Shown here one piece after another: positions 1 through 46,190 of a stretch of DNA of 46,190 nucleotides; positions within the stretch are counted from its first letter, which is position 1; each line of letters starts with the position of its first letter. The stretch is from a virus, in IMG/VR virus record IMGVR_UViG_3300025168_000154, positions 1 through 46,190 of that record. One strand, given 5' to 3'. The position numbers were made by a program, and so were the translations under genes. The notes under the pieces were generated by a model. The model searched no databases. It saw only the letters and a list, made by a program, of their open reading frames with translations, and was not told the DNA's origin.

Positions 1-123
1 TAATCTAATTATCATCTTCATGTTATGCCTTTACTTTTGTTTGACCGGAGTTGCTGATAGTACAAGGGCCGCCAACGCTATCTGTTATTATCGCATTTTC
101 GTTTAATACCAAGCTAATTGCAT
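1..123. repeat. Left copy of the terminal overlap (circular closure)
   Basis: Bases 1-100 are identical to 46068-46167, and 101-123 match 46168-46190 except at five positions. This shows a circular or circularly permuted molecule with a unit length of 46,067 bp. The overlap covers the 3' end of spike gene gp45 and the 5' end of the exported-protein gene downstream of it. Confidence 0.95.
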
Positions 124-571
124 CACCAAGCTTAACTTCTGGGGCATCAGCTTTAACTTCGGTAGTGCCTTCTAGTTTAATTTCTGGAGCTGTTATTTTA
201 GCCTCAGCTGTAGCAGTTAATTCAATATTTGCTAGAGTGGTAGCTAGTAAATCTTTAGCACCGGTAATTTCTATATCACCGTTAGCCTTAAAAACCAATT
301 TACCACCTTGATTAAAGTTACCAACAGCAACCTCACTACTTTCAAGATCCGGCTGCACCTCTTGATTTATAGGTATAACAGCAGGATTTGATCTATCACC
401 ATGTAAAAACAATAACAAACCCAGACTATTATCATTTATCAAAATATTTGAGGCGTAACCGTATGGCATTAATAATTTTACATTCGTAAATAGAGAATTA
501 TTAGCACCAGTGACATCAGCAACTTTACCATTGCATTTTGTTATTATCGCTCTTTCAAAATATCCTTTCAT
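23..571 (-). CDS. Baseplate spike protein, Mu gp45-like
   Basis: This 182-residue protein resembles the Mu gp45/P2 gpV baseplate spike group. An N-terminal OB-like part, with a run of short beta strands around residues 25-60, is followed by repetitive strands rich in Ala, Glu and Lys (about residues 90-150), as expected for a trimeric beta-helical needle. The spike sits at the tip of the contractile tail and punctures the outer membrane. Its neighbours across the closed circle are gp44 on one side and gp46 on the other, where Mu keeps gp45, but here the gene is on the opposite strand. It is the first gene of a two-gene minus-strand unit. Its stop lies one base before the ATG of the exported-protein gene. 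Family assignment rests on size, composition and synteny. Confidence 0.75.
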   Translation of the reverse strand: MKGYFERAIITKCNGKVADVTGANNSLFTNVKLLMPYGYASNILINDNSLGLLLFLHGDRSNPAVIPINQEVQPDLESSEVAVGNFNQGGKLVFKANGDIEITGAKDLLATTLANIELTATAEAKITAPEIKLEGTTEVKADAPEVKLGDAISLVLNENAIITDSVGGPCTISNSGQTKVKA

Positions 572-623
572 AAAAAATCTACATTTTATTTATAACTCAT
601 AATCATATTATAACAAATATAAT
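572..623 (+). promoter_or_regulatory. Candidate late promoter for the gp46 operon
   Basis: AAAAAATCTACA (572-583), an 8-nt gap, ATAACT (592-597), a 20-nt gap, then TATAAT at 618-623. The same arrangement occurs upstream of portal and of gp38. No good -35 box stands 17 nt before the -10, which suggests an activator-dependent late promoter (inference). Confidence 0.5.
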
Positions 624-635
624 TTTTAAATTCAA
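607..635 (-). promoter_or_regulatory. Sigma70-like promoter for the inverted gp45 unit
   Basis: Read on the minus strand: TTGAAT (635-630), a 17-nt spacer and TATAAT (612-607), about 35 nt before the gp45 ATG. It overlaps the oppositely directed candidate late promoter, so gp45 and gp46 would be transcribed divergently from a space of only 72 bp. Confidence 0.5.
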
Positions 636-643
636 GAAATTCA

Positions 644-1090
644 ATGGCGATAGATTTTAAGTTTAAACAAGATGAGCTTGGTAAATGGGATATTGATTTT
701 GCTGGTGGCGATATAGAGACCACGCAAGGCCTCGATAGTGCTATCTATTTATCTATCTTGTCTGAAAATAGAGCCTCAGCATCGCAAATAAAAGATGCCA
801 GACTGCGCAGAGGTCATTTTACTAATGAATTTAATAATATACAAAATAGCGAAGTAGGATCATTGGTCTGGTATTATTCAGGTCAAGTAGTAAATACTCA
901 ATCAAATGCAAGTTTGATTCAAGATGCAATTGCAGATTCTTTATCTTGGATATTAGATCAAGGTATAGCCTCGGATTTAGAGGTGAGTGTTGAAAAAAAA
1001 GGTAGCGGGTTAAATATCGATATTGAATTGATAAGTGAACTAACGCCTGAAAATCAATATTATAATTTATTTTTTAATACAGTTAATTAA
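644..1090 (+). CDS. Baseplate wedge protein, Mu gp46 family
   Basis: This is a 148-residue phage GP46-family protein. The N-terminal pattern of a native-protein start (DFKFKQDELGKWDIDF), then 'GGDIETTQGLDSAIYLSILSENRA' in outline, is the family signature, corresponding to the short T4 gp25-like wedge subunit. It is expected to link the sheath base to the wedges. It is followed directly by gp47 and gp48 in the Mu order, and its stop overlaps the gp47 start (TAATG), indicating translational coupling. The start has no Shine-Dalgarno, only an A/T-rich leader. Confidence 0.85.
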   Translation: MAIDFKFKQDELGKWDIDFAGGDIETTQGLDSAIYLSILSENRASASQIKDARLRRGHFTNEFNNIQNSEVGSLVWYYSGQVVNTQSNASLIQDAIADSLSWILDQGIASDLEVSVEKKGSGLNIDIELISELTPENQYYNLFFNTVN

Positions 1091-2457
1091 TGGCTTTAAC
1101 GTACCCGACACAAGCAGATATTCAAAATACTTTAGTCAATGCCTTAGTTGAGTCTGTAAATACTGGCCAAACTGACACTACTAAGCAAATTGACCCAACA
1201 CTTGACAATAGTATTGTTAAGGGACTAGTTGAGTCAACAACAGCTGGTATTTCAGATAATTACAATCTTGTTAAGGCTTTAGAAGTTCAACTTTTTCCAC
1301 AAACTGCAACAGGTGCTTTTTTAGATAGATGGTTAGCAACTTTTGGTATTACAAAGGCACCGGCCACTAAGGCGGACGGTAGCGTTGTTTTTACCGGTAC
1401 GGCACTAACCACAATTCCAGCTGCTACCAATGTTCAAAAAACTGACGGCACCTTATTTGAAACTTTAAGCGATACGCCAATTACAACAGAATCAATAGTT
1501 GTTAGCTCAATTACTAGGCTTGGCTCTGTAGCTACCGTTACCACGCTAAACGCACATAATTTAGCCACTGGAGTGTCGGCCACAATAAGCGGTGCAGATC
1601 AAGCTGATTACAACGTTACAGCTACCATTTCAGTTACTGGAACTAATAGCTTCACTTATACGGTAGCTAATAATCCAGCAACGCCAGCGACCGGCACTAT
1701 TTTAACAAGTGCCACTTTTGCACACGTTGCGGTTAGGGCTGTAGAATTTGGCAGCTCATCAAATACTGGCGCAGCTTCACAATTAAGTCTAGTTGCTGCA
1801 ATACCTAACGTTGATAATATAGCGACCGTTGATTTTAGCGGTATAAGAGGTGGACTAAATGCAGAAAGTGACGAGTCGGCAAGAGCAAGGTTATTGACAA
1901 GAACAGCTAATATGACAAGCGCCTTTGCTAGTGCTGGTATTATTTCTTTTATTAAAAATGCTTATCCGACAATTACGAGAGTTTGGGTGCAAGATGCGAC
2001 GCCATCAGCTGGCTATGTAACGATTTATTTTACAGAAGATTCAGAAACAAATATTATACCAACAGGGGCGCAAGCTAACTTAGTTAAAAACACAATAATT
2101 GATCCAGCAACTGGCATCAAGCCAGCTAACACGCCAGATAGTTATGTTTTGGTATCCGGGCCAACGCCAGTAACACAAAACTTTGAATTTAGTGCATTAT
2201 CGCCAAACACTCAAGATATGCGCGATAATATAACAGAAGCCTTAAAAGATTATTTTAGATCTGCGTCAGTTAATGTTGAAACAAATGTAAATGCAAATCA
2301 ATATAATTCTGTAATATCCAATGTAATTGATTCAAGTGGAAATACGCCAACATATACCTTGACCACGCCAGCGGGTGATATCGCAGTTGGCACTGGTGAA
2401 TTAGCAATTTTAGGAACTATAACGTATCCGGGCGGGATAACAATACTAATACCATAA
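1090..2457 (+). CDS. Baseplate protein J, Mu gp47 family
   Basis: A 455-residue baseplate J-like wedge protein. Typical features are the N-terminal 'FPQTATGAFLDRWLATFGI' region, the central 'GGLNAESDESARARLL' segment and the C-terminal domain ending in a repeated Gly/Ile strand. Residues about 136-205 hold an inserted beta domain with the pattern HNL..G...ISGA...DYN...FTYTV...PATGT. The same kind of insertion is present in the gp37-like protein at 37937. J proteins polymerise around the hub and carry the fibre-linking subunit; the next gene (gp48) is its usual partner. Confidence 0.92.
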   Translation: MALTYPTQADIQNTLVNALVESVNTGQTDTTKQIDPTLDNSIVKGLVESTTAGISDNYNLVKALEVQLFPQTATGAFLDRWLATFGITKAPATKADGSVVFTGTALTTIPAATNVQKTDGTLFETLSDTPITTESIVVSSITRLGSVATVTTLNAHNLATGVSATISGADQADYNVTATISVTGTNSFTYTVANNPATPATGTILTSATFAHVAVRAVEFGSSSNTGAASQLSLVAAIPNVDNIATVDFSGIRGGLNAESDESARARLLTRTANMTSAFASAGIISFIKNAYPTITRVWVQDATPSAGYVTIYFTEDSETNIIPTGAQANLVKNTIIDPATGIKPANTPDSYVLVSGPTPVTQNFEFSALSPNTQDMRDNITEALKDYFRSASVNVETNVNANQYNSVISNVIDSSGNTPTYTLTTPAGDIAVGTGELAILGTITYPGGITILIP

Positions 2458-3044
2458 TGAGCTTAATACAAGAACGCACATTGCAAGAAGAAGCTGGGGT
2501 GTTAAGACAGTATTTGCCTGCAAACCCGCTTTATAGCGGCGATAATTTAAAAAAGGTTTTAGTAGGTCTTGCGGCTTCGTGGTTAGATTATCGTGCGTTT
2601 ATTAATAGATTAGGTGATGAATATAACATAAACACCACAGAAGATTTAATATCTTCATGGGAAGGTTTTGTTGGAATACCTGATTCTTGCTTTAACATTG
2701 CATCTACAATAGAAGAGCGGCGTCAAAATGTATTATTGAAAATTGCTGGCTTAAATGTAGCGACCGCAAGACAATTTGAAAATATAGCGCAGATTTTAGG
2801 CTTTTCAATTCAAGTAACTTCTGGCATTGAAGAGGCGACTTTCCCAATGGCCTTTCCTATCACTTTATTAAGTGCTGGAGATTTAGGATTTACAATATTA
2901 GTAAGAATTGATTCAAGCTTAAAGCCATCAGGATTTCCCTTGACTTTTCCTTTTGAATTTACAGGGGACGCTCCAGACATTTTACAATGTTTATTCAATA
3001 AAATTAAACCCGCAAATACACAAGTAATTTTTAAATATATATAA
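2457..3044 (+). CDS. Baseplate wedge protein gp48 (DUF2313/YmfQ-like)
   Basis: A 195-residue protein of the Mu gp48/YmfQ type, the tail protein I-like wedge component that ends the baseplate arm and receives the fibres. The N-terminal 'LRQYLPANPLYSG..LKKVL.GLA' and the 'WE...GIPDSCF....T..ERR..VL.K..G' segment are characteristic of the family. Its start overlaps the gp47 stop (ATGA). Two related motifs near the C terminus (FPMAFPITLLSAG and FPLTFPFEFTG) suggest a small internal repeat. Confidence 0.85.
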   Translation: MSLIQERTLQEEAGVLRQYLPANPLYSGDNLKKVLVGLAASWLDYRAFINRLGDEYNINTTEDLISSWEGFVGIPDSCFNIASTIEERRQNVLLKIAGLNVATARQFENIAQILGFSIQVTSGIEEATFPMAFPITLLSAGDLGFTILVRIDSSLKPSGFPLTFPFEFTGDAPDILQCLFNKIKPANTQVIFKYI

Positions 3045-12063: not shown

Positions 12064-13179
12064 TTATTTAATTTTAGTAAATATTGGTGAGCCTTTTGTA
12101 GAATAAGAAACTTTATTTTCAGTGCCTATAACTTTAGAATACTTAGCTTTAGTGCGCTTCATAATCTCAGCTTCAATTTCTTTTTTAGCATCTGTATTTT
12201 TAGCAATCAAGGCTTGAGCCTCTTGCCTATCATTTATCAATTGATCTAGCTCGTCAGTTTCTTTAAGCTCTAAAACATCAAACCCCTCAGGTCTTATCTG
12301 CCTCATCATTTCACGAACTCGAGCAGTTGCGGCGTAATCATCGTGCACAGTAGGCACATTGTTATTATCAATATCTTCTTTAAATAACTTGAGACTTTTG
12401 TTAATAATATCTTGGTATTGCTGGTAAATTGGATGCGCGAAGGTGATTAATTCATAATACTGATATAAATACTCAAATTCATCATGAAGCATTGCTTGCA
12501 TCATCGAACCCTTAACAAATGGATCATCAGAAGGAAATTCGTGGCCTTCAATCTCAATATTTTTCTCTCTAGGAAGTAAAATTGATATGACACCCCACTT
12601 TTTACCCAAAACCATCATCTGGTATTGGTTTTGCAACATATATTTAGCCGGCGCGCCAACATTTTCATCAAGAAGACCCTGCAAGGCATCGTGGCGTGCT
12701 GTTTTTAATTCTAATGCACCTCGACCCATTTCTTTTGTAATTGAGTAGTCAGGCAAGCCTCTAACTTGCAACGATCTATCATCAACTAAATCTATGTAGC
12801 CGTCCGGAGAACAGCAAGCATAGTCGTGCATTTCTTTATTAACTACAAAATCATGCTTTTGCTCTAATTTTATTTGCTTATTATCATAGCCAGTATTTAA
12901 CTCGCCCTGCAATCGCTTGAATACGTAGCCCTCCATTGCATTACCAAAGGCCAGCAAAGACTTCATTGCCGCTGTATCTTTGCGAGCTAAATCAAAACCA
13001 AATTTTACTTTTAAGAATAATTCTTGAGCGCTTGTGAATGGCCTTTCCTTATATAAATCAATACCAATGGCCTCTAACTCATTTTTGCAATAATGATGTG
13101 CTAGTCCATAAATTTCGGAACCGCCTATATATTGTTTTTTAGCAGCTAGCCATTCATCAGTGCCTTGCTTAATTGTCAT
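12064..13179 (-). CDS. YqaJ-type recombination exonuclease (lambda Exo-like)
   Basis: A 371-residue PD-(D/E)XK nuclease of the YqaJ/lambda exonuclease group. Signature elements in order: 'QGTDEWLAAKKQYIGGSEI' near the N terminus, 'GNAMEGYVFKRL', 'CCSPDGYIDL' (Asp), 'ALELKTAR' (E-x-K) and 'LQNQYQMMVLGKKWGVI' (Gln motif). The C-terminal ~120 residues are a helical extension. It would degrade 5' strands from ends, leaving 3' tails for the RecT-like annealase two genes upstream. The ATG is 2 nt after the upstream stop. Confidence 0.9.
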   Translation of the reverse strand: MTIKQGTDEWLAAKKQYIGGSEIYGLAHHYCKNELEAIGIDLYKERPFTSAQELFLKVKFGFDLARKDTAAMKSLLAFGNAMEGYVFKRLQGELNTGYDNKQIKLEQKHDFVVNKEMHDYACCSPDGYIDLVDDRSLQVRGLPDYSITKEMGRGALELKTARHDALQGLLDENVGAPAKYMLQNQYQMMVLGKKWGVISILLPREKNIEIEGHEFPSDDPFVKGSMMQAMLHDEFEYLYQYYELITFAHPIYQQYQDIINKSLKLFKEDIDNNNVPTVHDDYAATARVREMMRQIRPEGFDVLELKETDELDQLINDRQEAQALIAKNTDAKKEIEAEIMKRTKAKYSKVIGTENKVSYSTKGSPIFTKIK

Positions 13180-13181
13180 TA

Positions 13182-13439
13182 TTAGTTTTTTTCAATTAAT
13201 TTTTCAATAATAGCACTAGATTCTTGTAGTTGCTTGCATAAAGACTCAATAGTAGTCTCGTTAGCTCGTAACAAATTATCTTTATATTCAATGCTTGCAT
13301 TTTTCTTTCTAACTATGGCCTTAAGAACATTGATCTTACTCAATTGTTTGGCAATAACGCAATCTTTGTCTTTTAAATCTTCTTCTAAAATATCAATTTC
13401 AGATGGTATATAATTATCAATAGAATTTGCTTTAGTCAT
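13182..13439 (-). CDS. Small coiled-coil protein between recT and exonuclease
   Basis: An 85-residue, strongly helical and charged protein with heptad-like spacing of Leu/Ile over most of its length (from about residue 15). It is sandwiched between RecT and the exonuclease and overlaps recT by 8 bp. It may tether or modulate the recombination complex, but no family is recognised. Confidence 0.6.
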   Translation of the reverse strand: MTKANSIDNYIPSEIDILEEDLKDKDCVIAKQLSKINVLKAIVRKKNASIEYKDNLLRANETTIESLCKQLQESSAIIEKLIEKN

Positions 13440-14277
13440 TTTTTAATAATTTAATTTTGGTAGAATATAACTCTTTAATTTCTTCTTTGTCAGCATCGCT
13501 CATGCCACTTTCAGCAATCTCTTGCCCTATTTTCACTAAAGATGTCTTGTTACTTGTTTTTTTAATTCTAATTCTGTAGTCATCAAGTAGCGAAGGAAAC
13601 ATCTCAATTTGATTTTCATCAACAACCACTGGCTCTTGCTTCGGTTCTTCTATTTGCTTCATTGCTGCATCCAGATCTGGTGCGCTATGGACAGGGGTCA
13701 GGGGGGTAACATCTTTAACCTCATTAACACCCTCCATTTCCTCAGCTGAATGAATACCTTTTAAAATATCAGCAAATGCTTCACGTAAAGCAAACGCCCT
13801 AGCTTTATATCCTAACATCTGTTTGGGGTGCGTTTTCCAAGTGCCACCTTTACCCCAAAGATTAGCAGCTTTAGCATCAGTAACTGAAAATTCTTTGACG
13901 ACTGGCTCACCCATGTCTTTTCTTTTTACTTCAAATTTCGCAGTCAAAGATCCATCTTCTATTTTGCCAGTATAGCTTGTTTTATGCCACTCGTAAGATC
14001 CGGATGATTGCACAATAGATAATTGAGCATCACCCCAAACTGTGGGCATACCATTAACAACAGCAATATTTTGTAGTGATGCTAGGGGAGGTAGCCCAAT
14101 TTCCATTCCATACATTACAGCAACAGCTGCATCAGCTTCTTTATTTCTGTAAACTTTAGGTACTAATTCTGTTTTAGTAACGATGCTAGCAAACTTAAGA
14201 ATCTCATCAAAGTTATTAAATGATAAAGCTTTTGGCCCTTGAAATTTTACTATTTTTGAATTTTTATCGTTTGTCAT
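13432..14277 (-). CDS. recT: RecT-family single-strand annealing protein
   Basis: A 281-residue member of the RecT/Bet annealase superfamily. Diagnostic stretches are 'AVMYGMEIGLPPLASLQNIAVVNG', 'WGDAQLSIVQSSG', 'FSVTDAKAANLWGKGGTWKTHPKQML' and 'RAFALREAFADILKGIHSAEE'. It anneals complementary single strands after resection by the downstream exonuclease. The C-terminal ~90 residues are an acidic/linker region and a helical end. It is first in the leftward operon. The ATG is some 94 nt after the -10 of a consensus promoter, with no Shine-Dalgarno. Confidence 0.9.
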   Translation of the reverse strand: MTNDKNSKIVKFQGPKALSFNNFDEILKFASIVTKTELVPKVYRNKEADAAVAVMYGMEIGLPPLASLQNIAVVNGMPTVWGDAQLSIVQSSGSYEWHKTSYTGKIEDGSLTAKFEVKRKDMGEPVVKEFSVTDAKAANLWGKGGTWKTHPKQMLGYKARAFALREAFADILKGIHSAEEMEGVNEVKDVTPLTPVHSAPDLDAAMKQIEEPKQEPVVVDENQIEMFPSLLDDYRIRIKKTSNKTSLVKIGQEIAESGMSDADKEEIKELYSTKIKLLKND

Positions 14278-14366
14278 AATTAGTTAATTAAGTTAGTATT
14301 AAAATTAATATATAATTTTATAAATGTAAAGATAAATAATTAAATATATTTATACTTAGTTAATAA

Positions 14367-14399
14367 ATAAATTATAAATTTATAATTTATAGATGTCAA
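14367..14399 (-). promoter_or_regulatory. Consensus promoter and 24-bp palindrome upstream of recT
   Basis: On the minus strand: TTGACA (14399-14394), 17-nt spacer, TATAAT (14376-14371), a perfect sigma70 match. A perfect 24-bp AT-only palindrome (14367-14390, half-site ATAAATTATAAA) covers the -10 and most of the spacer, as a repressor site would. A near copy precedes the gene at 19704. Confidence 0.8.
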
Positions 14400-14428
14400 C
14401 AACTAATTTAATATTTTTATAAAAAAAA

Positions 14429-14800
14429 TTAACTAAGTGATTTTAAGAGATGGGATAGGGCAGGATTGTTTTTAGAAAGCTTTTTTAGCTCTTGATCGAT
14501 CTTTTCTTCTACCATCGATCTTAGCAAGTCTTTAATGTTTGTATTAGTTTCGGACTTTAATAAATCAAGCTTGCGACAATAGTTTTTGTCGAGTAAAACG
14601 TGCTTTGGCTTTACGTCAGTTTTGTTAGCATATTTACGAGCCATTTCTAATTCAATTTCTTTTCGTAAATCGTCGCTATTGATAGCCTTTTCCTCAGCGG
14701 CTATCAAGTCTTTATATCGCTTTTCTTTGACATCAAGCGTTTCCGCGTTCGTTTGTTTTGCAAATTTAAATTTATTTTTATTATCAATTTTATTATTCAT
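14429..14800 (-). CDS. RHH-like DNA-binding partner of ParA (ParB/centromere-binding candidate)
   Basis: A 123-residue basic protein. Residues 1-65 are charged and helical. From about residue 66, 'KHVLLDKNYCRKLDLLKSETNTNIKDLLRSMVEEKI' looks like a ribbon-helix-helix fold: a short beta strand, then two helices separated by a turn. Gene order ParA then small RHH protein, with an ATGA overlap, is typical of type Ib partition operons, where the second protein binds the centromere and represses the operon. The centromere itself is not identified. The assignment is structural inference. Confidence 0.55.
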   Translation of the reverse strand: MNNKIDNKNKFKFAKQTNAETLDVKEKRYKDLIAAEEKAINSDDLRKEIELEMARKYANKTDVKPKHVLLDKNYCRKLDLLKSETNTNIKDLLRSMVEEKIDQELKKLSKNNPALSHLLKSLS

Positions 14801-15441
14801 TCTTGTAATTCCTTTATAAATTTAGTAAATTCTTTAGTTGCTTTTTTATCGATAGTGCTTGTTTCAAATATAGATAATCCATTATTAATTGAATTAGCAT
14901 ACATTGCTCTATTTTTTATTTCAGCATTCATAAATTTAAAATACTTAGTGGTGCATTTTTTCATCTGCTCAACATCATTGTTGAAATGATGAGTAGGTGT
15001 CATGTTAGCTAGAATCCTACAATCAGCATCAAAATTAGGTATTTTATCAATTACTTTTTCAACGTTATCTATTGTCTTGATTTCCAGCAGGGAAGGCTTG
15101 AGAGGCATAATTACTTGATTTGCATAGCTTATCGCCATTTTTAACTCTTTATCAATCCTACCGCCACATTCTAAAATTATTACATCATGATTATTTTTTT
15201 CTGCATCGTTAATAAACTTTATTGCATTCGATGCTGGCGTATTAATTACATCTTTAATATAGTCATCATTTTTTACTATCTGCCTAATTTTAGCAATTTC
15301 AAATGATGAAAATTGATTATCATCGCAATCGATTAACTTAACTTGCAATCCGTCATTTTTTAAGGCAATGAAAAGATTCCACGCAATTGTAGTCTTGCCA
15401 ATACCTCCTTTTTGACCTACAATCGAAATAATATGAGCCAC
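14797..15441 (-). CDS. parA: ParA-family partition ATPase
   Basis: A 214-residue Walker-type ATPase. The deviant Walker A 'QKGGIGKTTIAWNL' starts near residue 9 and carries the signature Lys of the ParA/MinD group. 'VKLIDCDDNQFSS' is the A' motif and 'DVIILECGGRIDKEL' the Walker B region. The length fits short plasmid ParA proteins without the extra N-terminal DNA-binding domain. It would segregate a low-copy circular molecule with its overlapping downstream partner. Such a gene in a phage usually means a plasmid-like prophage. Confidence 0.88.
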   Translation of the reverse strand: MAHIISIVGQKGGIGKTTIAWNLFIALKNDGLQVKLIDCDDNQFSSFEIAKIRQIVKNDDYIKDVINTPASNAIKFINDAEKNNHDVIILECGGRIDKELKMAISYANQVIMPLKPSLLEIKTIDNVEKVIDKIPNFDADCRILANMTPTHHFNNDVEQMKKCTTKYFKFMNAEIKNRAMYANSINNGLSIFETSTIDKKATKEFTKFIKELQE

Positions 15442-26084: not shown

Positions 26085-26441
26085 ATGATTGATGATAAAC
26101 TTTTTATAATTATAATTTCAACGGTTATCTTTTGCACGATACCAATCATATATATGATATTAGATGTAAATCATATTTTTTCAAAAACTCATCCAACAAT
26201 CTTAAAACTAGCAGAAGAAATCAAAAAAGGAAATATTAAAGAAATAGAAGATGCAAAATCATTAGTTATAAATTTTGAAGACTACAAAATACGTTATTTT
26301 TTTATAATTGGTCGTGTTCAATTATTTAAAAATGAAATCAAAATATCAATCAATGCAAAAGAACACGCTGTCTTATATAAATCTATTCATTTTTTATTTA
26401 GATTACAGGAATCGCAATCAAGATCTTTACTAAATGACTAA
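26085..26441 (+). CDS. Membrane protein co-transcribed with recombinase
   Basis: A 118-residue protein with one strong N-terminal membrane segment (residues about 7-28) and a soluble helical C terminus. It overlaps the recombinase start by 8 bp. Not recognised. Confidence 0.5.
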   Translation: MIDDKLFIIIISTVIFCTIPIIYMILDVNHIFSKTHPTILKLAEEIKKGNIKEIEDAKSLVINFEDYKIRYFFIIGRVQLFKNEIKISINAKEHAVLYKSIHFLFRLQESQSRSLLND

Positions 26442-27105
26442 ATACGTCGCCTACGTTCGCGTATCCACAAATAAACAAGATCACGGCCTTGATGCTCAAT
26501 TAAATACTATTAATAATTGGATTGAGGCTAGAAGTGCTGAATTACTACTACCTATCTATAAAGAAAAGATGAGCGGTAAAAATGACGATAGGCCGGTGCT
26601 TATGGAAGCTATCGAGCAATGTAAGAAATATAATGCTACTTTACTTATTGCTAAACTGGATAGGCTTAGCAGAAACGTATCGTTTTTATTTGCGTTAAAA
26701 GATGCGGGCGTTGCAATAGCTTGCTGCGATTTGCCGGACTTAAACACTTTGACACTTGGTATTTTTGCCACAATGGCACAACATGAAAGAGAATTAATCT
26801 CTAAGCGAACCAAAGAAGGCTTGGCCGCTGCAAGAGCTAAAGGAAAAATAATAGGGCGGCCTAAAGGCTATCAACCTAATTATAATATTGAAGAAAGGAA
26901 TAAAAAAATTAGCGATACTAAATCCCTTAAAAACTTAGAAGCAAATAAAAGGTTATATAAGATAGCTACTTTTTTACGAGAGCAAGGAGCTAGCACTTAT
27001 AAAATAGCTAAGCAGATGAATGAGATGGGCTTGACTTCACCAACTGGCAAGAAAATTCACGCTAAAACAGTTTGGCTATTACTAAAAAACGATAAATTGA
27101 AATGA
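26434..27105 (+). CDS. Serine recombinase of the resolvase/invertase family
   Basis: A 223-residue protein. The N-terminal catalytic domain shows 'YVAYVRVSTNKQ' with nucleophile Ser11, then 'LLIAKLDRLSRNVSFLF' and 'GIFATMAQHERELISKRTKEGLAAARAKG', the standard resolvase order, followed by 'IIGRPKG' and a C-terminal HTH ('ASTYKIAKQMNEMGLTSPTGKKIHAKTVWLLL'). It is of small resolvase size, not a large integrase. With ParA it would serve to resolve multimers; DNA inversion is the alternative, though no second site was seen. Confidence 0.9.
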   Translation: MTKYVAYVRVSTNKQDHGLDAQLNTINNWIEARSAELLLPIYKEKMSGKNDDRPVLMEAIEQCKKYNATLLIAKLDRLSRNVSFLFALKDAGVAIACCDLPDLNTLTLGIFATMAQHERELISKRTKEGLAAARAKGKIIGRPKGYQPNYNIEERNKKISDTKSLKNLEANKRLYKIATFLREQGASTYKIAKQMNEMGLTSPTGKKIHAKTVWLLLKNDKLK

Positions 27106-30825: not shown

Positions 30826-30876
30826 ATTATAATACAAAACTAGAGTATTTAGTTATAAAAAAAATGTAGATTTTTT
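30826..30876 (-). promoter_or_regulatory. Candidate late promoter for portal
   Basis: Minus strand AAAAAATCTACA (30876-30865), 8-nt gap, ATAACT (30856-30851), 19-nt gap, TATAAT (30831-30826). The upstream edge overlaps the terminase stop codon. Confidence 0.55.
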
Positions 30877-32914: not shown

Positions 32915-32937
32915 TTTTACAAAATTTTATTGCTAAT

Positions 32938-32963
32938 AAAAAATCTACATTGATTGTCCTTCT
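32938..32963 (+). promoter_or_regulatory. Partial late motif before the protease/capsid operon
   Basis: AAAAAATCTACATT is intact at 32938-32951, but the ATAACT half (here CCTTCT) and the -10 are poor. It is on the plus strand toward the protease gene, some 60 nt upstream. Confidence 0.35.
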
Positions 32964-39020: not shown

Positions 39021-39071
39021 AAAAAATCTACATTTAAATTATAACTAATGAAATTATATTTATAGCATAAT
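39021..39071 (+). promoter_or_regulatory. Candidate late promoter before gp38/sheath operon
   Basis: AAAAAATCTACA (39021-39032), 8-nt gap, ATAACT (39041-39046), 19-nt gap, CATAAT (39066-39071). The ATG of gp38 is 13 nt further. Confidence 0.55.
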
Positions 39072-39083
39072 TAATAATTTTTT

Positions 39084-39281
39084 ATGAAAGAAATAGAAAT
39101 TAAAATAAATAAAGATTTAACATCACCTAGCGGAAAATATAGCTCCGGCACGCAGTTAATTCTATTTGTCGATAGTGAAGGTACGCCACTTGATCACTTC
39201 TGGCGCAGCAGGCTAAAAGATTCAGCAATCGATGATTGTATTGAAATTGTAAATAAATCAACTAAAAAATCTAAAAAATAA
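39084..39281 (+). CDS. Mu gp38-like protein (DUF2635)
   Basis: A 65-residue protein with the DUF2635 pattern 'SPSGKYSSGTQLILFVDSEGTPLDHFWRSRLKDSAIDDCIEI'. It always sits just before the sheath gene in Mu-type tails, as here, and overlaps the sheath ATG by one base. Function not known. Confidence 0.8.
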   Translation: MKEIEIKINKDLTSPSGKYSSGTQLILFVDSEGTPLDHFWRSRLKDSAIDDCIEIVNKSTKKSKK

Positions 39282-41811: not shown

Positions 41812-43233
41812 ATGGCAACATTTCAAAATGAATTCATATTTAAATTAATAGATAAGATCTCGCCTAAGCTTAAGAAAATTGAAAAGCAGATGGCGAAGAC
41901 TACTGACAAGATAAAGCGTCAAACTGCAAAAGCTGGTGAAAGTTTTAAGAAATTAGGTGATAAAATTGGTAATGTTGGCAAGAAAATGATGTCACTAGGC
42001 ACGCGTGGCTTGATCGCTGTTACAGCACCTCTTGCACTTTTAGGGCGTAAATTTATTAATGCAGCTTCGGATTATGAAGAAGCGGTAAATAAAGTTGATG
42101 TTGCTTTTGGTGGCGCTTCACAATCAGTAAAAGACTTTGCAAAAACAGCCGGTGAAAATTTTGGTATCGATAGGGGAAGGGCGCTAGATATGGCTGCTCT
42201 CTTTGGCGATATGGCAACTGCTATGGGTATTAATCAAGATAAAGCTGCGGGATTATCAAAACAGCTAGTTTCCTTATCTGGTGACATGGCTTCATTTAAA
42301 AACGTAAGTGTTGAAAGAGCCGCTACTGCTTTATCAGGGGTCTTTAATGGCGAGACAGAAGCACTTAAAAAGTTGGGGATTGTTATGACACAGGCCAATG
42401 TTGATGAGTTTGCAAGAAGTCGTGGAATAAAAAAGTCTATTAAAGATATGACGCAGGCTGAAAAAGTGATGACAAGATTTATGTTTGTTGTTGACAAAAG
42501 CAAAAACTCAATTGGTGATTTCAAAAGAACGCAGGATTCGTATGCTAACTCAGTAAGAAAAATGCAATCAAACTTTAAGGATCTATCTATTTCTTTTGGC
42601 CAAAGAATGCTGCCTACAGCCACAAAATTTGTTAATGTACTAGGTGACATATTCTTAAAAATAAATAAAATCAGCCCGCAAAATAAAGATTTAATAATTA
42701 AAATAGGCGCTCTAGTTGCTGCAATAGCACCTTTATTGATTGCCCTTGGCGGTCTAGCGGTCGCAATGAAGTTATTAATTATACCCGGTGCTATATTAGC
42801 AGTGAAGTTCGCAGCAATAGGAGGGGCGTTGTTTGGTGTTTATCAGATAATTAAGGTAGGTATAAATTTATTTACTGATTTTGATAATACAATAAATAAA
42901 ATTATAACCACGGTAACAAATTTACCTAGAATACTAAATGAAGCTAAAAACAATTTACTTCAATTTATTGGCATTGATCCGATGAAAGGAAAGTTTGATG
43001 AAATGGCCAGAAGACAGGAAGCTGCAGCGGCTAAGTTTAAGCTTGATCAAGCTGCTATGAACCAGTCATTTACATCTAACGCAATGATTAACTCAAGAAA
43101 TAAAACAGACGTAAGCGGTAATATTGCCGTTGAGATTCTAAGTGCTGAAAAAACAAAAACTAAAATGACGCCTGCAAAAAATAGCGCCATTGGCTTTACC
43201 GGTAAAAATACAATTATAGGAGGGGGCTATTAA
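41812..43233 (+). CDS. Tape measure protein (Mu gp42-like)
   Basis: A 473-residue tail length protein. N-terminal coiled segment (K/T-rich), 'LGRKFINAASDYEEAVNKVDVAFGGASQSVKDFAKTAGENFGI' and 'ALSGVFNGETEALKKLGIVMTQANVDEFARSRG', typical tape-measure features, then a hydrophobic stretch at about residues 298-345 that could enter the membrane. Its modest length implies a short tail. It follows the chaperone directly. Confidence 0.9.
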   Translation: MATFQNEFIFKLIDKISPKLKKIEKQMAKTTDKIKRQTAKAGESFKKLGDKIGNVGKKMMSLGTRGLIAVTAPLALLGRKFINAASDYEEAVNKVDVAFGGASQSVKDFAKTAGENFGIDRGRALDMAALFGDMATAMGINQDKAAGLSKQLVSLSGDMASFKNVSVERAATALSGVFNGETEALKKLGIVMTQANVDEFARSRGIKKSIKDMTQAEKVMTRFMFVVDKSKNSIGDFKRTQDSYANSVRKMQSNFKDLSISFGQRMLPTATKFVNVLGDIFLKINKISPQNKDLIIKIGALVAAIAPLLIALGGLAVAMKLLIIPGAILAVKFAAIGGALFGVYQIIKVGINLFTDFDNTINKIITTVTNLPRILNEAKNNLLQFIGIDPMKGKFDEMARRQEAAAAKFKLDQAAMNQSFTSNAMINSRNKTDVSGNIAVEILSAEKTKTKMTPAKNSAIGFTGKNTIIGGGY

Positions 43234-44423
43234 TGACAGTTCTTAGACTATCATCTTTACCACTAGCTGAACTAGGCGGGGTTGAATTTCATTATATAGA
43301 CGGCTCCTTTCAAGGGGGGCGCAAAACTGTAACGCATGAATATCCAAACTCAGACACTAGATATGTTGAAGATCTTGGTAGATTAGAAAATATTTACAAT
43401 ATTAATGCAAAAACTGACGATAACGTTAATAACAAGACCAGAGACGCATTAATTAAAGTTTTGAATAGATCGGGTATAATTACCTTAGTTCACCCACGCT
43501 ACGGTGAGAAAAACGTCGTTTGTAAGGGTTATACTGCCTCAGATGACATCACAGAGCTTGGTGTGACAAATTTTTCTATTACCTTAGAAATAGCTTCAAG
43601 AAATATTTTACCAGTTACGCAAAAGAAAAAAGGATTTTTAGCGGATCTTAAAAGTAAAATATTAGGCGAAAATGAGGCAGCTTTTGACGCTGGCGTTGAT
43701 TCAGTTAAAAATGCTAAAGATGAATTTGATAGATTTAACGCTACTGTTAAAAAAGCGGCTCGGCAAGTAAACAGATTAGCGGATCAAGTGCAGGGCATAG
43801 GTGATTCTTTTGCAGATTTTTCAACATCAATGAACGAGATTGTTAATTCATCAGCTAGGCTAGTGCAAGCCCCTTCAAAGTTGGCCGCGACATTTAGAAC
43901 TGCCTTTGATAATTTAGGCGTTGCTTATGAGACATCCAAGCAGCTTTTCGGTGTCACCTCTTCTTTTGCTGGTTTTGATGAGCGCGACCAAATAGCCCTT
44001 GGCAACTCAGCACGTCAAAAATCAATTAGGAATAACCAAGATCAAATTAATAATTATATTAACGTTGCAGCTCTTGCGACTGCCTTAGATGCAGCTGCTA
44101 ACATTGATTATGAGACGCTTGATGAGCTAAATCAAACCAGAGAAGATATTGCTAATAGCTTTGATAAATTGCCAGATAATATTGATCAAGATCTACTTGA
44201 TTCATTAAACGCTATGAGAAGAGCAGCAAATGGTGTTTTGGACAATATAGGCCTATCTCTACCTAGGGTAATTAATATTGATCAGGTGAATCCCTTACCG
44301 CTCCACATTTTAGTTTATTCGATGTATGGCAACCTTGACAGATTAGATCAAATAAGATTGTTAAATAATTTTGTTGATACGTCGCAAGTCTCCGGCTCAA
44401 TTAAATTACTAAGTAATGGTTAG
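43233..44423 (+). CDS. Mu gp43-like DNA circularisation N-domain protein
   Basis: A 396-residue protein. Residues 1-130 are the DNA_circ_N domain ('GSFQGGRKTVTHEYPNSDTRYVEDLGR', 'LVHPRYGEKNVVCKGY', 'ITELGVTNFSITLEIA'). The middle is a charged coiled coil. In contractile tails this protein belongs to the tail-end hub, the name notwithstanding. Its ATG shares one base with the tape measure stop. Confidence 0.85.
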   Translation: MTVLRLSSLPLAELGGVEFHYIDGSFQGGRKTVTHEYPNSDTRYVEDLGRLENIYNINAKTDDNVNNKTRDALIKVLNRSGIITLVHPRYGEKNVVCKGYTASDDITELGVTNFSITLEIASRNILPVTQKKKGFLADLKSKILGENEAAFDAGVDSVKNAKDEFDRFNATVKKAARQVNRLADQVQGIGDSFADFSTSMNEIVNSSARLVQAPSKLAATFRTAFDNLGVAYETSKQLFGVTSSFAGFDERDQIALGNSARQKSIRNNQDQINNYINVAALATALDAAANIDYETLDELNQTREDIANSFDKLPDNIDQDLLDSLNAMRRAANGVLDNIGLSLPRVINIDQVNPLPLHILVYSMYGNLDRLDQIRLLNNFVDTSQVSGSIKLLSNG

Positions 44424-45579
44424 TTTTCAGCAATTTAAAGGTGTCGATAATAACTTAGAAATAGATATCAATGGTCAAAGATTCACTGGCTTTACTTATG
44501 CAAGCGTTGCAAGATCGATGGACGCCCTATGTGGCACGTTCTTCTTTTCAACTACTGTAAAAGAGGATGCTGACGGCCTTATTGCTAACGGCCTAAAAAT
44601 GGATGACAAGGTGGAGATCTTTATTGATGATCAAAAAGTGATGACCGGTTATATTGAAGAATTATCTATCGATGCTGGAGTTAATAGCCATGAGCTTTCG
44701 TTTGGTGGTCGCGATATTACATCAGATATAATCGATAGCTCAATGCCAGAATTCTCTTATAATAATAGCAAAAACTTTAAAAATCTTATTGAGGGTGTTT
44801 TAAAAGAGGCGAGTATTGACGTTAAAGTTATAAACAATTTAACAAGTCAAGATTTAGATACGTTGAATTTTAATGCATTTGAAGGAGATGGAAAAGCTGC
44901 CAATCTCGATTCAACTATCTTTGATTTTTTTGATCATTTCGCTAAACAAAAACAAGTTTTATTGTTAACTAACGAGAAAGGTGATTTAGTTATCGCAAGA
45001 GAAGAATCTAAGATTAGCCCCGGAGCTTTAACTTGTAAAAAAAACAATAATAATAACAACATTATATCTTCAAGCGTTAATATAAATACTTATGAGCGAT
45101 TTGCTAAGGTTAATATTTCATCTCAAGACACTAATGCCGTAGATAAAAAATTAATTAATCAAGATGCTTTTGCCACAGATGCACAAATAAGAAAATCAAA
45201 ACAACAACGGATATTTTATCCAAATAAAACTACTGACCCCAACGCCTTACAAAACATGAGCCAATGGCACGTCAACATGTATAAAGCGAAGGGCACGCGA
45301 TATTCAACTGTAACGCAAGGTTATTATTCACAGCCTGTTAGTGAAATATTATGGGAAATCAATACTTTAGTTGACATTGAAGATGATTTGACTAATGTTA
45401 AAGGTCAATATTTAATTGAGGGTTTTAGCTTTACCAAGGATGCTGACAGTGGTAGCGTTACACGGTTAAATATAGTAAATAAAGGCTCTTATTCTGTAAA
45501 AAAAGAAATTGAAATAACAAAAGAGACTGGACTCAACAAATCAATCTTAGAAGAATTATTCAAAAAAGCAGGGATTTAA
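44416..45579 (+). CDS. Baseplate hub protein (Mu gp44-like)
   Basis: A 387-residue hub protein of the Mu gp44/P2 gpD type: 'FTYASVARSMDALCGTFFFST' and 'DDKVEIFIDDQKVMTGYIEELSIDAGVNSHELSFGGRDITSDIIDSS' fit the first domains of the group. The spike normally sits on this ring. In this genome it converges with an oppositely oriented gene, overlapping by 4 bp. Confidence 0.88.
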   Translation: MVSFQQFKGVDNNLEIDINGQRFTGFTYASVARSMDALCGTFFFSTTVKEDADGLIANGLKMDDKVEIFIDDQKVMTGYIEELSIDAGVNSHELSFGGRDITSDIIDSSMPEFSYNNSKNFKNLIEGVLKEASIDVKVINNLTSQDLDTLNFNAFEGDGKAANLDSTIFDFFDHFAKQKQVLLLTNEKGDLVIAREESKISPGALTCKKNNNNNNIISSSVNINTYERFAKVNISSQDTNAVDKKLINQDAFATDAQIRKSKQQRIFYPNKTTDPNALQNMSQWHVNMYKAKGTRYSTVTQGYYSQPVSEILWEINTLVDIEDDLTNVKGQYLIEGFSFTKDADSGSVTRLNIVNKGSYSVKKEIEITKETGLNKSILEELFKKAGI

Positions 45580-46088
45580 TTTGAGGCATAATCCTCTTGC
45601 AAATATGATTTTTTATACTGACTCATAATTCTATTAAAATATTCTTCGCCAAGCTTATTAACGCTAACTAGAGAATTTGCAGGAACTAGACCCCTTTGAC
45701 CATTAACGCCATGATATGCAACTATATTAGAATTTTTAAGTTGTTTAATAGATAATATGATACCGGGTTTTGAAGTATTAATATAATCACATCTAGCCTT
45801 CGCAAACCAAGATTTGTTGACAATAGCATCAACTTTTCTTAACATCTTATCGCATCTTTTAAATTGTTTCATGCTACTAGCTGTTAACGTGTACGGCTTG
45901 ATATAATAGTAATCTTCATATTTATAGTTTTTTATAACTCTTGCCATAATATCTCTAGTCTCTTGATGATTCATCGCTCGCCACCATTGATCATAGGCTT
46001 TATAAGTAGTAAAATCGTAATTTTTCGCAAAACTATTAACCGGAAATAAAACCACCAAAATTAAAACTAATCTAATTATCATCTTCAT
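45576..46088 (-). CDS. Exported protein in inverted spike unit
   Basis: A 170-residue protein with a signal peptide (residues 1-21, MKMIIRLVLILVVLFPVNSFA, cleavage after A21 likely), then an aromatic, basic mature domain ('YDQWWRAMNHQETRD', 'YYYIKPYTLT') with two Cys that may pair, and a Gly/Pro-containing 'AYHGVNGQRGLVP' near residue 125. It is the second gene in the minus-strand gp45 unit, with ATG 1 nt after the spike stop. No family recognised; a periplasmic role or lysis/immune function is possible. Confidence 0.55.
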   Translation of the reverse strand: MKMIIRLVLILVVLFPVNSFAKNYDFTTYKAYDQWWRAMNHQETRDIMARVIKNYKYEDYYYIKPYTLTASSMKQFKRCDKMLRKVDAIVNKSWFAKARCDYINTSKPGIILSIKQLKNSNIVAYHGVNGQRGLVPANSLVSVNKLGEEYFNRIMSQYKKSYLQEDYASN

Positions 46089-46190
46089 GTTATGCCTTTA
46101 CTTTTGTTTGACCGGAGTTGCTGATAGTACAAGGGCCGCCAACGCTATCTGTTATTATCGCATTTTCATTTAACACTAAACTTATTGCAT
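46068..46190. repeat. Right copy of the terminal overlap
   Basis: Repeats bases 1-123. After 100 identical bases it differs at 46168, 46174, 46177, 46180 and 46183. All five fall at codon third positions of the spike gene and none changes an amino acid. Confidence 0.95.
46090..46190 (-). CDS. Spike gene gp45, partial second copy (3' end)
   Basis: The last 33 codons of gp45 appear again at the right edge because the sequence overlaps itself. This is the same gene as at 23-571, seen in a slightly different allele, and is not a second gene. Confidence 0.9.
   Translation of the reverse strand, partial: AISLVLNENAIITDSVGGPCTISNSGQTKVKA

Follow-up and report, generated by a model that had tools for sequence, protein, structure and literature searches.

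One inversion of the spike gene and a cargo slot at the gp44/gp45 junction in a clade of Mu-tailed phages

Gene order around the inverted spike gene

The window analysed here is the complete 46,190-base virus record IMGVR_UViG_3300025168_000154, whose bases 46068-46190 repeat bases 1-123 at 96% identity. Despite this terminal repeat, the record is classed as linear in IMG/VR. The two record ends differ at five places in the last 30 bases, all of them synonymous in the minus-strand frame of the spike, and the spike codons recur at 46090-46190 with synonymous changes. This pattern suggests that the end derives from another strain of the phage, with purifying selection acting on the spike; alternatively, the overlapping ends may mark a circle that was not closed. 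On the closed circle the genes are ordered gp43(+), gp44(+), exported(-), gp45 spike(-), gp46(+), gp47(+) and gp48(+). The original prediction had described the order from gp44 to gp46 from a span (45576-46190) that is limited to the exported gene and the partial spike repeat, and this order was confirmed both on the circle and on a second IMG/VR contig (L006, 9017 bp). In L006, gp44, the exported gene, the spike and gp46 follow one another unbroken, the junction is crossed at 100% identity, and the spike and exported genes are identical to those of the window. Because this independent contig spans the junction, an assembly artefact was ruled out as the cause of the gene arrangement. Pfam and PHROGs name every gp43-gp48 gene at the locus, the exported protein being the exception. 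The features are as follows.

43233..44423, + strand: gp43-type tube initiator / DNA circularisation protein, upstream flank (PF07157, 1.3e-16; phrog_184, 1.1e-50)
44416..45579, + strand: gp44-type baseplate hub (PF21683, 1.5e-11; phrog_177, 1.8e-50)
45576..46088, - strand: exported protein, cargo gene, 170 aa (signal peptide; SH3_2, E=0.0016, below cutoff)
23..571, - strand: gp45-type spike, 182 aa, inverted relative to gp44 and gp46 (PF06890, Phage_Mu_Gp45, 3.2e-6)
572..597, + strand: late-promoter-like element AAAAAATCTACATTTNNNTTATAACT upstream of gp46, exact repeat
607..635, - strand: candidate sigma70-like promoter for the spike and the exported gene (TTGAAT-17-TATAAT, extended -10)
644..1090, + strand: gp46-type baseplate wedge protein (PF07409, 4.7e-11)
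1090..2457, + strand: gp47-type baseplate J protein (PF04865, 3.1e-34)
2457..3044, + strand: gp48-type wedge protein (PF10076, 2.1e-19)
30851-30876, - strand: late-promoter-like element AAAAAATCTACATTTNNNTTATAACT upstream of the portal gene, exact repeat
32936-32951, + strand: late-promoter-like element, partial copy
39021-39046, + strand: late-promoter-like element AAAAAATCTACATTTNNNTTATAACT upstream of the gene at 39084, exact repeat

The exported gene begins 1 bp past the spike stop codon (TAA-C-ATG) and its 3′ end overlaps that of gp44 by 4 bp; the cargo slot described below is bounded on its left by the gp44 stop codon. The 26-base element in the gp45-gp46 gap is found as three exact copies in the window against 0.00 expected, each pointing toward its gene, and looks like a late promoter of the phage. 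No copy in the window faces the spike. A separate sigma70-like promoter had also been proposed for the inverted pair, and of this claim the site itself stands: the candidate at 635-607 (5992-5964 in L039) matches 10/12 positions and has TG before the -10. Its score is only mildly better than chance for a short AT-rich gap (p about 0.045), which makes it a suggestive but weak candidate for the spike promoter. Across the clade, sigma70 scores facing the spike average 8.8 matches versus 8.25 and do not rise above chance, and a general clade-wide promoter of this kind was rejected; in the L045/L046 group an 11/12 site faces the spike. The proposed placement of the spike in its own divergent unit is supported; gp46 and the genes that follow would be driven by the late promoter in the gp45-gp46 gap, and the spike would be expressed separately.

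Orientation and inheritance of the spike across relatives

Relatives were gathered by searches with the spike, hub and wedge proteins, which yielded about 110 loci. When all reading frames were annotated with profiles, gp45 and gp46 were both present in 106 loci, of which 61 were inverted and many were overlapping copies; dereplication at 95% gp46 identity left 25 inverted and 29 same-strand lineages. Most of these loci are fragments from metagenomes that were retrieved through gp46 patterns, so the outgroup is unevenly sampled. The spike was inverted in all 25 lineages of one clade. The tree of gp44, gp46 and gp47 requires a single change of orientation, placed on a branch supported by UFBoot 100 and SH-aLRT 100, and one change was likewise recovered in 100% of 200 bootstrap trees. 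The sampled loci of Mu-type phages outside the clade carry all these genes on one strand, as do five named isolates that lie outside the tree (D108, Vibrio 1.028.O, Shewanella MuM16-2, the Silvanigrella phage and Bordetella PBb001). Since the change is single and well supported and every member of the clade is inverted, the inverted state is derived, old and fixed. The inversion of gp45 happened once, long ago, in the ancestor of the clade, where the gene would have turned between gp44 and gp46 and kept its orientation since.

The window shares with the gp43-gp48 operon of Mu and D108 the same genes in the same order, and the N-terminal domain of gp45, gp44 and gp46-gp48 are recognised by Pfam. 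However, the D108 genes all share one strand and their starts and stops overlap, whereas gp45 is inverted in the window and throughout its clade, which consequently departs from the Mu-type arrangement of gp44-gp48 on a single strand. Unlike in Mu and D108, a late promoter appears to serve gp46 of the window separately, and the H-x-H apex is missing from the spike tip. Neither an inverted gp45 nor a cargo slot between gp44 and gp45 was found in the titles and abstracts of the open literature, subscription journals being outside the scope of the search.

An inverted tail gene also recalls the invertible tail genes of the Mu G-segment type, in which case the spike segment would be flipped by site-specific recombination, and a gene of the serine recombinase type is indeed encoded in the window (26434-27102). 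This gene, however, lies ~19 kb from the spike round the circle and there is no invertase next to the module. The search for flanking inverted repeats returned no strong ones around the module, the best pairs (71-93% identity over 12-38 bases) being chance-like, and all clade contigs show one and the same orientation. An invertible DNA segment was therefore rejected, and we regard this explanation as hardly credible.

The N-terminal (OB) domain of the spike matches PF06890 with 27.4 bits against a curated cutoff of 24.1. In Mu, the spike apex is an H-x-H motif with Fe/Ca ions (PMC11915804), which is not part of the PF06890 definition. The window spike, which ends in ..LNENAIITDSVGGPCTISNSGQTKVKA, lacks this apex, and within the clade the motif is confined to the L067/L070/L025/L086 group; the clade spikes comprise three unrelated tip types, two of them without the metal-binding apex of Mu. 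Only two changes of tip type fall on the tree, and the spike has been passed on together with the adjacent genes. Identity of the spike N-terminal domain correlates positively with that of gp44, gp46 and gp47 (0.38-0.54); because this correlation is weaker than the one among those three proteins themselves (0.60-0.74), some recombination of the spike may have occurred. A swappable spike was rejected on the basis of the two tip-class changes.

The gp44/gp45 junction as a cargo slot

In most cases gp44, gp45 and gp46 of same-strand phages are adjoining or overlapping, whereas the inverted clade has gp44 and gp45 ending against each other, stop to stop, often with four shared bases. This is the sole stop-to-stop junction of the baseplate operon, and it was created by the inversion. 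More than 300 bp of extra sequence was present between gp44 and gp45 in 13/30 inverted loci versus 0/32 same-strand loci (Fisher 1.4e-5), and in 0/107 cases at the other four junctions of the inverted clade (Fisher 2.2e-10 versus gp44/gp45), the loci in both tests being not fully independent. Near-identical phages differ by 0.3-4.9 kb sited between the two stop codons. Thus, the gp44-gp45 gap is -4 bp in L041 and 684 bp in L040 (gp44 99%, gp46 99% identical), -4 bp in L115 and 4249 bp in L049 (gp45 99%), 0 bp in L074 and 326 bp in L072 (gp44 91%), and 24 bp in L053 and 4920 bp in L056 (gp45 96%). Both flanking proteins retain their ends in the close pairs, and the presence of cargo switches at least six times on the tree. 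These results identify the gp44/gp45 junction as a cargo hotspot of the inverted clade, and support the view of the original prediction that the locus is variable.

The cargo itself is diverse. The slot holds a GNAT acetyltransferase in L009 and L057; a homologue of the DNA polymerase III sliding clamp in L025, L116 and their relatives (L077, L079); and, at 3-1708 of L052, a nicotinamide phosphoribosyltransferase (NAMPT) together with a nucleotidyltransferase-like gene. One block of L049 (1368-4781) encodes an SNF2-type helicase, a ParB-like protein, an ectoine-synthase-like cupin and a DUF3440/PAPS reductase, and ORFs similar to this block occur in L054 and L056. Small family-less proteins are also found among the cargo. 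Most cargo genes lie on the spike strand; the position of the clamp and ankyrin genes on the gp44 strand is a point against the account of the slot given below. An exact TTGACA -35 precedes the cargo of L049, L050, L052, L054, L056 and L068; these sites match 10 to 11 of 12 positions overall, with individual p values of 0.002 to 0.14, the cargo of L050 and L052 showing 11/12 sigma70 matches. As side observations, the NAMPT and nucleotidyltransferase pair of L052 resembles NAD-restoring counter-defence pathways, and ankyrin-like repeats, identified by eye, stand beside the clamp in L077 and L079 and occur also in L069.

How such inserts are accommodated can be proposed from the geometry of the junction. 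The inversion would have exchanged the coupled starts and stops of gp44, gp45 and gp46 for one stop-to-stop junction, at which an insert would cut no transcript or ribosome-binding site. The slot may be tolerated because an insert disrupts neither coupled translation nor a start site, and hence morons could come and go. The cargo would presumably serve the phage in its host.

Like the morons of lambdoid phages, these inserts lie cleanly between genes that are adjacent in relatives and in several cases have a candidate sigma70 promoter of their own; unlike them, they occupy an inversion-made stop-to-stop junction in a baseplate operon, and no terminator was found. P2-like phages and P4-like satellites also have cargo hotspots (PMC9122126), where unrelated genes turn over at a fixed place in a conserved phage. 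Here, however, both the phage group and the place are others, and the cargo comprises NAD salvage, sliding clamp, GNAT and exported proteins. Even in a structural operon as highly conserved as this one, one rearrangement can thus become fixed throughout a clade and give accessory genes a safe site of entry, and the address between the gp44 and gp45 stops indicates where counter-defence and conversion genes can be sought. We consider it highly probable that the whole account holds, namely that a single inversion produced a stop-to-stop slot at which accessory cassettes turn over, the exported protein of the window among them.

The exported protein and the probable host

The exported protein carries the N-terminal signal peptide MKMIIRLVLILVVLFPVNSFA, a clear Sec signal as judged by eye from the sequence, and is probably periplasmic, which agrees with the earlier description of the spike's partner as an exported protein. 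Its one relative (L008:3029-3538) is 29% identical and shares two cysteines, C79 and C100. Between the window and L008, identity is 82% for the spike, 76% for gp47, 68% for gp44 and 62% for gp46. The exported gene was found in 2/25 lineages; both lineages of this subclade keep it beside the spike, while elsewhere its place is empty or holds unrelated genes. No empty-site sister was found for the subclade of the window and L008.

No named relative of the protein was found in phages, PADLOC returned no match, and a search of the PDB by sequence gave no convincing one. Among 344 genomes of one order, the three matches were sub-threshold and all lay in stop-containing reading frames. The C-terminal part matches SH3_2 below the cutoff. 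Structure models were weak (mean pLDDT 59.6 and 46.4), and their best Foldseek matches were SH3 domains with E values of 0.055 or worse; because of these low-confidence models and E values, we treat an SH3-like C-terminal part as a lead only.

In L008, the spike and the exported gene are separated by an 87-base gap containing TTGACA-17-TATAAT, a 12/12 sigma70 match (p=0.0005) that is the sole 12/12 site in that locus. In the window, a scan revealed neither a promoter nor a terminator of its own for the exported gene, and no terminator-like site was found in L039 4700-6200, which covers the locus of the window. The exported gene of the window is most likely on the transcript of the spike, and the protein would be expressed with the spike or independently of it.

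The tight spacing bears on what the two genes are to each other. The original prediction saw in them a swappable spike with a protective partner, that is, a matched and exchangeable pair whose periplasmic protein would shield the lysogen against same-type spikes. The 1-bp spacing in the window could mean a functional pair, and as such counts against the cassette reading; the genes are adjacent in L008 as well, and the partner carries a signal peptide and diverges fast. However, an effector and its immunity protein are expected to co-occur and co-vary, and here the partner is restricted to 2/25 lineages, spikes of the same tip class occur without it, and 82% conservation of the spike stands against 29% for the partner. 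Moreover, the tree shows only two changes of spike tip; the outcome named beforehand as refuting the prediction, one strand arrangement shared by the whole family, is the one observed, with the inversion fixed in all 25 lineages of the clade and of single origin; no lysogeny repressor was seen among the ORFs scanned; and in related genomes it is the inverted spike, rather than the complete gp44-[exported]-gp45-gp46 order, that proved clade-wide. We therefore judge the pair very unlikely; for the subclade of the window and L008 alone, paired protection is possible but not needed.

The same coupling to the spike, together with window-type tips that lack the metal-binding apex, would fit an accessory of the tail spike or of lysis, such as a spike chaperone, a tip cap or an envelope-lysis helper. 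Against this, the gene is absent from all other lineages, including those of the same tip class, it has a candidate promoter of its own in L008, and a separate M15 peptidase, likely the endolysin, is encoded elsewhere in the window; we regard this role as quite unlikely. Rather, a moron whose product is a periplasmic protein is the best reading of the exported gene, and insertion between genes that are adjacent in close relatives is indeed what near-identical phages show at the slot. It is possible, if doubtful, that the protein alters the host envelope to the advantage of the phage, most plausibly through superinfection exclusion or another surface change.

Two inverted-spike contigs (L115, L116) come from two metagenome-assembled Rickettsiales genomes, one of which also contains a same-strand relative (L131). 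The host assignment rests on binning, since the contigs from these bins show only phage genes where examined. Almost all knowledge of the phages concerned comes from metagenomes, and some of them possibly infect intracellular bacteria with few known phages. A bolder proposal, which we consider unlikely, is that in a Mu-tailed clade, probably of Rickettsiales or related intracellular bacteria, the inverted spike serves as a docking site for host-manipulation and counter-defence cassettes, with the exported SH3-like protein acting as a periplasmic superinfection-exclusion or surface-modifying factor. Because no MuA-type transposase was present among the window ORFs scanned, the phage appears Mu-like in its tail more than in its replication. 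Elsewhere, the window encodes YqaJ, RecT, ParA and the serine recombinase (12067-15441 and 26434-27102), and it also carries a terminase.
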